Source: Planctomicrobium piriforme (GTDB lineage: Bacteria > Planctomycetota > Planctomycetia > Pirellulales > UBA1268). From it: a DNA stretch of 64,000 bases. Each line of letters opens with the position of its first letter. The stretch's first letter is position 1. The notes below the pieces were generated by a model. It was not told the origin of the DNA. It did not search any database and saw only the letters and a list, made by a program, of their open reading frames with translations. The stretch spans positions 1-64,000 of the forward strand of contig CAMAVC010000007.1 in assembly GCA_945861585.1 (NCBI GenBank), given 5' to 3'. The translations under genes were made by a program, and so were the position numbers. This document shows positions 1 to 19,165 of the stretch, piece after piece.

Positions 1-290
1 ATTTGACCAGCGGAGCCATCTTCACGCGAACACCCGGCATCGTGCCGCTGTTCGCTTGGCGGGCCTCCGCCCGCTGGTGTTTACCCGGGCCTCCGGCCCT
101 GACGTTCGCGTGTGGGAGCCGAGCTTTGCTCGGCGACCGTAAGCCGGCGCCGACGCCGGGACGGCGGCGACGGCGCGAAATTCGCCAGGCGCAGCGCAGG
201 CAAATCCGAGTGAGCCGGAGCCTGGAGGGCGGAGGCGAACGTCCGGCGAGCGGGATATGGGGAGCCCGAAGCCGGCGCGCATGAATGGAG
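1..290 (+). repeat. Mosaic hairpin repeat, copy A (left edge)
   Basis: This gene-free stretch at the window edge is a chain of short hairpins. Stems seen: 26-32 with 49-55 enclosing 35-39 with 43-47 (loop TCG); 59-64 with 69-74 (loop CTCC); 87-91 with 95-99 (loop TCC); 102-104 with 109-111 (loop TTCG); 118-124 with 128-134 (loop TTT). From about 191 it continues into the second, widespread module (GCAGCGCAGGCAAATCC onward), which recurs near 9100, 15960, 26170, 26380 and 44790. The hairpin cassette appears to interrupt that second module: bases 1-19 match its outer part, and the match resumes near 189. Confidence 0.75.
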
Positions 291-8680: not shown

Positions 8681-9234
8681 GTGCGCCGGCTCGGGGTTAC
8701 CCCGTACCATCTCGCCGGACGCTCGCTGCGGGCTGGCTGTCGCGCCGTCGCCGCCGTCCCGGCGTCGTCTCCGGCTTACAGTCGCCGGGCAAAGCCCGGC
8801 TCCCACGCCTTCGGCGTCAGGGCCGGAAGCCCGGGTGAACACCGGCCGACGGAGGTCGGCCAAGGGAAAATGGCAGGACGCCATGTTTCCCGTGAAGTGG
8901 CCCAGATACGCCGGCTCAACGGTAGGGGTAACCCCTCGCCTCCCCGTCTGGAAGCCCGAGGCGTGAGCCGAAGGGAATACGCGTCGTGTTTCGCCACCGG
9001 GGCATCCTCTCGGCTTACGCCTCGGGCTTTCGTTGAAGAGGCTTCGGGCTCCCCGTGTCCCGCTCGCCGGCGTATGTGACGAGCGAAGCCATGGATGGCG
9101 CAGCGCAGGCAAATCCGAGTGAGCCGGAGCCTGGAGGGCGGAGGCGAACGTCCGGCGACGGGACATGGGGAGCCTGAAGCCGGCGCGCGCCCAACGAGGC
9201 GAACGTCCTGCGAGGCGGTATGGGGCAACCCCGA
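8681..9234. repeat. Mosaic hairpin repeat, copy B (composite)
   Basis: This gene-free stretch is made of repeat modules. Its left half has the outer frame (GCCGGCTCGGGGTTACCCCG near 8687; AGGGGTAACCCCT near 8927). Inside is an inverted copy of the copy-A hairpin cassette: stems 8784-8790/8794-8800 (loop AAA), 8805-8809/8813-8817, 8820-8823/8829-8832, 8844-8850/8855-8861 and 8864-8869/8886-8891 enclosing 8870-8874/8880-8884. The right half (about 9070-9195) is a forward copy of the GCGCAGGCAAATCC module. There is no coding signal. Confidence 0.75.
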
Positions 9235-14318: not shown

Positions 14319-15710
14319 ATGCATCAACGTTCCAGGGTTTCGCGACCTCGTGTGTCGTGGGCGAATGTCGCCGCGTCGGCTGCGAGTTGGGCGCTGTCCA
14401 TCTTTACGACGGCGTGTCTGGTGGCCGTGGGCTGGTTTGGCCACGCGACACACTGGTCATTCGGCTTGGGAGGGCACTCGGGCGGGCATCACGACCCAGC
14501 CGCAGGCCATGGCGCGCCGCCTGATGCGGAGGCGGCGGGTTCCGCGGCTACCACGGCGGACGGCACGGTCCAGTTTCGCTCCCAGGAGGCGCTCGATCGC
14601 ACCGGCATCGAGGTGCAGTCGGTCGAGCAGCGGCCGATGGTGAGCGAGCTCGTCGTCAACGGTGTGGTCGCGTACGACGAGCGGCGGATCGCACAGCTTT
14701 CGACGAGGGTGCCGGGCAGCATCTGGCGGGTGGAGAAGCGGCTCGGCGACCACGTCCATCGAGGCGATGTGTTGCTCGTGATCGACAGCCAGGACGTCGG
14801 GCAGCTGAAGGCCGAGTTTCTCAATGCCCTCGTCGTGCACGAGTCCCGGCGCGAGCAGCTCACCATTCTGGAAGAGGTCAAGAGTGCGGTGATGGGGCGG
14901 CAATTGCGCGAGGCGCGGGCCGCGCTCCGCGAAGCCCGCAACCATCTCGTCAACTCCGAGCAGTCGCTCGTGAATCTTGGCTTCGACATCTCGATCGCCG
15001 ACTTCGAACAGCTCGACGACGATGCCCGGGCGGCGAAGATTCGGACGCTCGGGCTGCCGCCCACGTTCACCGCCGCCCTGCCGGGGGATCGCCTGACGTC
15101 GAATCTGCTCCCGCTGTACTCCCCCTTCGACGGGATCGTCGTGGGGCGCGAGGCGGTGATCGGCGAGGTGATCGAGGCCGCCAAGCCGATCTTCGAGGTC
15201 GCCGACGTGTCCACGATGCTCCTCGTGCTGAACGTCAGCAAGGAGGACGCCGGGAAGGTGGCCATCGGGCAGCGGGTGAAGTTCCGCCCGGACGGCTCGA
15301 GCGAGGAATACGCGAGCACGATCACCTGGATCAGTACGGAGGTGAATGAAGAGACCCGCACGCTGCAGGTCCGGGCCGAGGTTCAGAACGACGCCGAGCC
15401 GCTCGCGGCCACCCGCGGGCTCCGTGCCAATACGTACGGTGCCGGCCGGATCGAGGTCGACCGTCGCGGCACGGCCGTGGTGGTGCCGCGGCAGAGCGTG
15501 CAGTGGGACGGCAGCCGGTGGGTGGTGTTCGTGCCGAGCGGCGAGGCCGCGTTCATGGCCCGGCCCGTACAGCCCGGTGTGCAGGAGGGCGACTTCGTGG
15601 AGATCATCGACGCCGCCGATGGCCAGCCGCTCACGCACGTCGTCGCCGCGGGAAGCCACGTGCTGAAGAGCCAGATCCTGCTCGAGCGCATGGAGCGCGG
15701 CGAGCTGTGA
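14319..15710 (+). CDS. RND efflux periplasmic adaptor (membrane fusion protein)
   Basis: A 463-residue adaptor of the CzcB/CusB type linking an inner-membrane pump to an outer-membrane channel. It has an N-terminal membrane anchor (about 20-40), a periplasmic stretch rich in histidine (six His between residues 42 and 64: GHATHW, GGHSGGHH, AGHG), lipoyl-like halves (LSTRVPGSIWRVEKRLGDHV and LYSPFDGIVVGREAVIGEVI) flanking a helical hairpin, and a beta-barrel. The His cluster suggests a metal substrate. GAGGAG is eight bases upstream of the ATG, so this start is preferred over TTG at 14304. The pump gene follows after 362 bases of repeat. No outer-membrane partner is in the window. Confidence 0.85.
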   Translation: MHQRSRVSRPRVSWANVAASAASWALSIFTTACLVAVGWFGHATHWSFGLGGHSGGHHDPAAGHGAPPDAEAAGSAATTADGTVQFRSQEALDRTGIEVQSVEQRPMVSELVVNGVVAYDERRIAQLSTRVPGSIWRVEKRLGDHVHRGDVLLVIDSQDVGQLKAEFLNALVVHESRREQLTILEEVKSAVMGRQLREARAALREARNHLVNSEQSLVNLGFDISIADFEQLDDDARAAKIRTLGLPPTFTAALPGDRLTSNLLPLYSPFDGIVVGREAVIGEVIEAAKPIFEVADVSTMLLVLNVSKEDAGKVAIGQRVKFRPDGSSEEYASTITWISTEVNEETRTLQVRAEVQNDAEPLAATRGLRANTYGAGRIEVDRRGTAVVVPRQSVQWDGSRWVVFVPSGEAAFMARPVQPGVQEGDFVEIIDAADGQPLTHVVAAGSHVLKSQILLERMERGEL

Positions 15711-15721
15711 TCGCCACCCCG

Positions 15722-16035
15722 CCCGTAGGACAGGCTTCAGCCTGTCATGCTGTCTTCACGGGAAGGCTCGGCATCGTGCCGACCTTCCCTTGGCCGACCT
15801 CCGTCGACTGGTGCCTACCCGGCCCTCCGGGCCTGGCCCGTCAAGTAGGACAGGCTTCAGCCTGTCGTGCCTCACTCGCCCAATCCGGCTCGGGACTGCC
15901 CATGCCCCATCGCCGGACGTTCGCTTCAGCCATCCTGGCTTTCGCTCACTCGGATTTGCCTGCGCTGCGCCATCCATGGCTTCGCTGGTCAAATACGCCG
16001 GCTCACGGGGCACGGGCAGCCCCTCACCTCCCTGT
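15722..16035. repeat. Mosaic hairpin repeat, copy C, between adaptor and pump genes
   Basis: This stretch separates the two efflux genes. It holds two copies of the palindrome GACAGGCTTCAGCCTGTC (15729-15746 and 15849-15866). Between them is the hairpin cassette: 15760-15766/15783-15789 enclosing 15769-15773/15777-15781, then 15792-15798/15803-15809 and 15821-15825/15829-15833. The second module follows in reverse orientation (about 15909-16021). It includes the hairpin AGCCA-TCC-TGGCT, whose stem differs on both sides from the GCCCA-TCC-TGGGC of copies D and E. Confidence 0.75.
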
Positions 16036-16072
16036 ACATCCTCGCCTCCCCGTTTGAGGTGGGACATCGCTC

Positions 16073-19165
<3,093 letters not shown>

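Follow-up and report, generated by a model that had tools for sequence, protein, structure and literature searches.

Among described repeat systems, the nearest to the element reported here are the GTAG REPs with their TnpA_REP (RAYT) proteins, the CGTC REPs, the composite REPINs and BIMEs, and the hairpins of class 3 TnpA_Y1 genes. A GTAG REP is one palindrome of 20–40 bases, and a REPIN pairs one REP with an inverted copy of itself. CT on either side of a single-stranded REP is the cleavage site of the TnpA_REP nucleases from E. coli and Stenotrophomonas; a bulged stem is required by the E. coli enzyme, and the loop is recognised by others (PMC8266576). The locus studied here carries a chain of three hairpins in which a bulged C, fixed loops and CT at both ends match a substrate of the TnpA_REP type. 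The cassette is likely to be a mobile element, and we put a probability of roughly 60% on its being a non-autonomous REP/BIME-like mobile repeat, belonging to one family of Planctomycetota and moved as folded single-stranded DNA by a CT-cutting enzyme.

Within the window (the whole stretch of 64,000 nucleotides that was analysed) the original prediction had seen three copies of a hairpin cassette, and all three were recovered where it placed them. Their core bounds are 19–104 on the plus strand (copy A, 105.1 bits with covariance model R1), 8815–8898 on the minus strand (copy B, 90.5 bits, within a composite repeat) and 15753–15838 on the plus strand (copy C, 98.2 bits, a short form with CTG before it); they are the only core matches in the window at E≤0.01 with this model. 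Thirty-six genomic copies, aligned with MAFFT without structure, define a core of about 86 bases in which the loops and the spacing of the three hairpins are kept while the stems differ among copies, as had been claimed for the first three. Hairpin 1 (26–55 in copy A, plus strand) has seven outer pairs, a bulged C, six inner pairs and the loop TCS; the bulge, which lies in the 5' arm in copy A, is near-universal among copies, and the loop is TCG in copy A and in many others. Hairpin 2 (58–75, plus strand) has seven pairs, including a conserved G-T at its base, and the loop CTCC; hairpin 3 (87–99, plus strand) has five modelled pairs, nearly all G-C, and the loop TCC. The spacer between hairpins 2 and 3 is GGTNNNNACC in the 36-copy alignment and GGTGTTTACC in copy A (76–85, plus strand), its four inner bases being hypervariable among copies. 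An extra GGT/ACC stem in this spacer, 89.6% paired with almost no paired changes, is retained as a possibility only. TTCAC precedes hairpin 1, with CTAG, CTGA, CTG or GGCT further upstream. The hairpins first described thus stand; the bulged C of hairpin 1 had been missed, and three copies were a small sample of about 80–90.

In copies A and B the core is part of a longer composite repeat that includes the fifth hairpin of the original prediction, and copy C is the short form. Read in the sequence, this hairpin is GCCGAGC-TTT-GCTCGGC at 118–134 on the plus strand in copy A, with GGGA before it, and GCCGGGC-TTT-GCCCGGC at 8784–8800 on the minus strand in copy B; copies that carry the longer A/B-type extension have it in common. 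Copy C is bracketed by a separate family of GTAG-tagged REPs, also read in the sequence, with the palindrome GTAGGACAGGCTTCAGCCTGTC upstream (within 15721–15746, plus strand) and a second one downstream (within 15845–15868, plus strand); in genome G003 a hairpin similar to GTAGGACAGGCTTCAGCCTGTC and the element together make up tandem units of 122 bp. All three copies also have another long dispersed repeat, GCAGCGCAGGCAAATCCGAGTGAGCCGGAGCCTGGAGGGCGGAGGCGAACGTCCGGCG, nearby: at about 190–290, at 9098–9192 and, as the reverse complement, at about 15915–15990.

Both sides of the stems had been said to change together, and the larger samples bear this out, with 95–97% pairing and three to four times more double changes than in shuffled controls. 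For the 36 own-genome copies, 95.1% of the cells are paired and 121 are double-change cells, compared with a shuffled mean of 39.7 and at most 17 in slid controls; none of 500 shuffles reached any of the measures. The 75 distinct copies from relatives are 97.0% paired, with 319 double-change cells (83.5 shuffled) and a covariation of 0.450 (0.115 shuffled), although their alignment was fitted to the model and therefore leans to the structure, whereas the own-genome alignment was structure-free. Even at two topoisomerase sites (L194 and L195) whose gene ends are 98.4% identical, hairpin 1 differs by a paired change from A-T to G-C. Template switching in quasipalindromes makes such compensatory changes in one step (PMC8794818). 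Because this process and the spread of whole hairpins as modules would suffice, we regard covariation as evidence of a selected or corrected hairpin and not of RNA as such; the covarying stems are real, and most likely derive from how DNA hairpins are copied, not from a working RNA.

A covariance model over the whole genome had been proposed as a check; it found about 80–90 copies in the own genome (92 matches of R1 at E≤1, about 80 at E<0.001), with stem changes more paired than in shuffles. Of 59 genomes searched, 21 had R1 matches, and all 21 belong to a single family (f1) of Planctomycetota MAGs; in the same search whole genera of that family were without the element. The own genome (G000), G003, G004 and G013 have at least 74–76 matches each, these being lower bounds. 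For many copies a contig end is no more than about 300 bases away (for example on C59, C93, C133, C144, C79 and C111 of the own genome), so that the assembly is probably interrupted by this repeat and the true copy numbers are probably higher. No match was found in the viral contigs, phages and plasmids searched, and a phage or plasmid origin was rejected.

The copies fall into A/B-type composites with further hairpins, composites with the upstream phrase ATTCGGAGCCGGCGGTAGGCATGCTCGAGGGAT, and short solo forms like that at window 15753. Tandem dimers in G000, G003 and G013 share a shortened hairpin 3 (such as ACCCGGCCGGCTG). G003 mixes its hairpins like modules: hairpin 1 comes in two common types and a rarer one, and hairpins 2 and 3 come in two types each. 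It also holds copies with almost identical stems at different locations. Among such nearly identical copies (L140–L159) the four inner bases of the spacer (window 79–82) vary freely, which is puzzling because recent copying should leave them alike. They may be the sole unconstrained part of an older family, or they may be rewritten on copying.

The copies are not scattered at random inside genes, in keeping with what had been expected of the cassette: one of 148 was called in an ORF, and the rest lie between genes. When coding-like ORFs of at least 100 codons were considered, 23 copies had an upstream stop codon at exactly offset -2, and every other offset had three cases or fewer. In these fused copies the last base of the stop is the first base of the element; 15 of the stops are TAG, eight are TGA and none is TAA. 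Many single copies are thus fused in one register, and the 23 are in gene orientation. The remaining copies lie 45 times between convergent genes versus twice between divergent ones and, between co-directional genes, 22 times with and 14 times against the gene direction (p=0.24), all these being approximate counts from gene calls made by a simple base-composition rule.

At two genes the element sits on the same stop codon in several species, with different stems; both genes were named by recognising their translated sequences and not by family search. The stop of topoisomerase VI A is occupied in G000, G012 and G021, and that of diadenylate cyclase in G000 and G003; the latter site is also occupied in G001, holds a truncated form in G013 and is empty in G004, G005 and most other genomes. 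The named relatives of the topoisomerase gene are from uncultured Planctomycetota, several of them labelled Planctomycetaceae or Pirellulales; the element or a truncated form directly follows the stop in most of the closest loci and is missing in others. The protein end DWLD is identical with and without the element, and the stop codon is therefore native to the gene. No exact pair of empty and occupied sites was found, because in the nearest discordant pairs the sequences after the stop codon have diverged too far. That a few stop codons recur across genera may reflect a hot spot, inheritance with homogenisation, or selection; the topoisomerase VI A sites kept over genera could also signal selection for function.

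The junctions are enriched for CT on both sides. Of 54 unique 5' flanks, 28 have CT among the three bases next to the element (background 11%, p=2e-13), and about half are without it; of 61 unique 3' flanks, 17 begin with CT (background 6%, p=8e-8). A Y1_Tnp search of 29 genomes of the family found no Y1 gene that is a consistent partner of the element. Such genes are present in 8 of 14 carriers (own genome included) versus 5 of 15 non-carriers, and are thus not clearly commoner in carriers; none was found in the copy-rich genomes G002–G005. An element copy lies near 2 of 11 Y1 genes, and at both the flanking hairpins of the gene differ from the element; a RAYT partner was rejected on these grounds and for want of clear co-occurrence. 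A reverse transcriptase was likewise rejected as partner: PF00078 occurs in 4 of 30 genomes, of which two carry the element and two do not. Four class-3-like Y1 genes were seen (one in G000, one in G014, two in G022), all flanked by other hairpin families. The one in the own genome (C106; L031, 1–1330) has a YVKECQ motif and is flanked by its own hairpins, AAAGCCCGAGGCGTAAGCCGAGTGGATGCCC, among which an element copy is inserted.

In the mobile-repeat reading, the element would be recognised as a folded single strand through its loops (TCC/TCS), the bulged C of hairpin 1 and short feet that are left unpaired. Its cutting and pasting, or copying, at CT on both sides would be the work of a trans-acting single-strand nuclease, for which a Y1/HUH protein of the TnpA_REP kind is the best guess. 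Since CT followed by AG or GA yields TAG or TGA, such stops would be good landing sites, and insertion there would spare the gene; many single copies may begin on a stop codon for these reasons. A CT-cutting enzyme together with selection against disrupted genes would then give the observed pattern, and the stop codon itself would need to play no part. Pairing in the stems would be kept up by the modular spread of whole hairpins, by correction of one palindrome arm against the other in replication (template switching), and by the loss of broken copies through the enzyme's recognition of the fold. In favour of this reading are the number of dispersed copies and their restriction to one family, their place between genes and away from gene starts, the stop-codon register, the CT enrichment at both junctions, the differing occupation of one stop among species, the GTAG palindromes and the class-3-like Y1 gene of the own genome, and the G-U/A-C symmetry. 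The Y1 results in copy-rich genomes and carriers, the different hairpins around the class-3-like genes, the 5' flanks that have no CT, the want of an exact empty and occupied pair and the occupied topoisomerase VI A sites kept over genera count against it.

The cassette could instead be a functional RNA of mRNA 3' ends, with three hairpins after the stop codon setting transcript ends, stability or ribosome recycling under selection and gene conversion. We think this fairly unlikely, though it would suit the 23 copies that start exactly at stops in gene orientation, the occupation of the same stops across genera, and the strength of the paired stem changes. It would also suit the G-T pair at the base of hairpin 2, which is kept in 138 of 164 copies and is G-U on the gene strand; it is the sole feature that would fit a gene-strand RNA, and may equally be part of a motif TTGG...CTGG. 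G-U should outnumber A-C among mismatches if one strand is selected to fold as RNA; in 154 distinct copies the stems have 16 G-U and 15 A-C, with loop-closing, bulge-adjacent and hairpin-2 base pairs left out of the count. The original prediction had noted a mismatch in copy B that is G-U only in the copy-A orientation, and had hinted at copy-A-strand RNA as the working form; given the family-wide symmetry the first does not carry over to the other copies and the second is not supported, nor is it supported by orientation (no significant preference, 22 versus 14) or by Rfam. Only two tRNAs in the window exceeded the Rfam gathering score, the best match at copy C was a weak 17 bits against a cut-off of 80, and a known RNA family was rejected. 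The suggested transcript-end device found no support at copy C: within 15600–16100 there is no T run after a G+C-rich stem such as marks an intrinsic terminator, and a terminator was rejected. Many composite copies, moreover, lie hundreds of bases from genes, and the element is missing at many orthologous sites, as it is throughout whole genera of the family. What stands of the proposed structured RNA element is a repeated structured element with real paired changes, and not RNA as its working form. The excess between convergent over divergent genes is the REP pattern described in PMC3733652, so a directional RNA is not needed to explain it. A DNA-level, REP-like feature accounts for the fold better than RNA does, and the fold may have a secondary effect in mRNA 3' ends.

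Very doubtful, in our estimate, is the view that the family is inert and decaying and is served by no active enzyme, its spread being old and its paired changes a by-product of template switching. The one-step origin of compensatory changes (PMC8794818), the paired difference already present between L194 and L195 and the want of a consistent transposase agree with it; in G003, however, near-identical stems at different places make the spread look recent, and mutation alone leaves the fixed loops and the bulged C unexplained. A mobile element aimed at stop codons as such (CTAG/CTGA), with many hairpins, a single-strand enzyme outside the Y1 family and a four-base spacer rewritten at each move, is quite unlikely. 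A reservoir of CsrA (RsmA) binding sites is highly improbable: loops 2 and 3 do contain GGA on the reverse strand, and five PF02599 matches in the genome pass the cut-off, but the TCG loop of hairpin 1 destroys GGA in many copies, and the stop-codon register and strand symmetry would be left unexplained. A CsrA sponge was rejected, the loop of hairpin 1 often being without GGA. Five CsrA-like proteins (on C108, C60, C69, C32 and C112; L048–L052) are many for one bacterium.

Here the textbook sign of a functional RNA, compensatory stem changes over many copies, most likely has its origin in the biology of DNA hairpins, which makes the family a clean example and a warning for covariation-based RNA discovery. 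The family has a precise, gene-sparing landing site at stop codons that recurs at the same genes across genera, and it makes the movement of transposase-less REPs directly testable.

Each known system shares part of this picture. By eye, no GTTRRRY box of an integron attC was seen in the element. In REPINs one REP is repeated; in the element, by contrast, the hairpins differ from each other. REPINs and BIMEs are composite hairpin arrays that seem to move as a unit (PMC3116915, PMC2817692), as the element also seems to do. Class 3 TnpA_Y1 hairpins of Planctomycetes and Acidobacteria, from the same phylum as the element, combine atypical secondary structures with high copy number (PMC6006769), and a class-3-like gene lies beside a copy in the own genome, although all four such genes have other hairpins. 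CGTC REPs, as described in PMC3733652, are palindromes without a dedicated transposase, as is the element, in which CGTC or CGCC precedes hairpin 3 when the other strand is read; unlike the element, they are single stems of 8–9 bp, almost always starting with complementary A-T pairs, and they are not known to have a stop-codon register. Hairpin 3, with five modelled and nearly all G-C pairs, does not combine the tag with such a stem, though CGTC/CGCC adjoins it. From the GTAG REPs the element differs in its three different hairpins in fixed order over 86 bases, in having no GTAG at the 5' foot, in keeping its loops while the stems change, and in that no cognate RAYT (Y1) gene flanked by the same palindrome was found. 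With them (PMC8266576, PMC3733652) it shares high-copy intergenic palindromes downstream of genes and avoided at promoters, a bulged stem, CT-enriched junctions at which a TnpA_REP would act, and composite mosaics; some GTAG REPs give a TAG stop to the upstream gene, and the element uses TGA as well as TAG. It is a real, well-structured, family-specific REP-like repeat, unusual in its three-hairpin build and precise in its stop-codon register.
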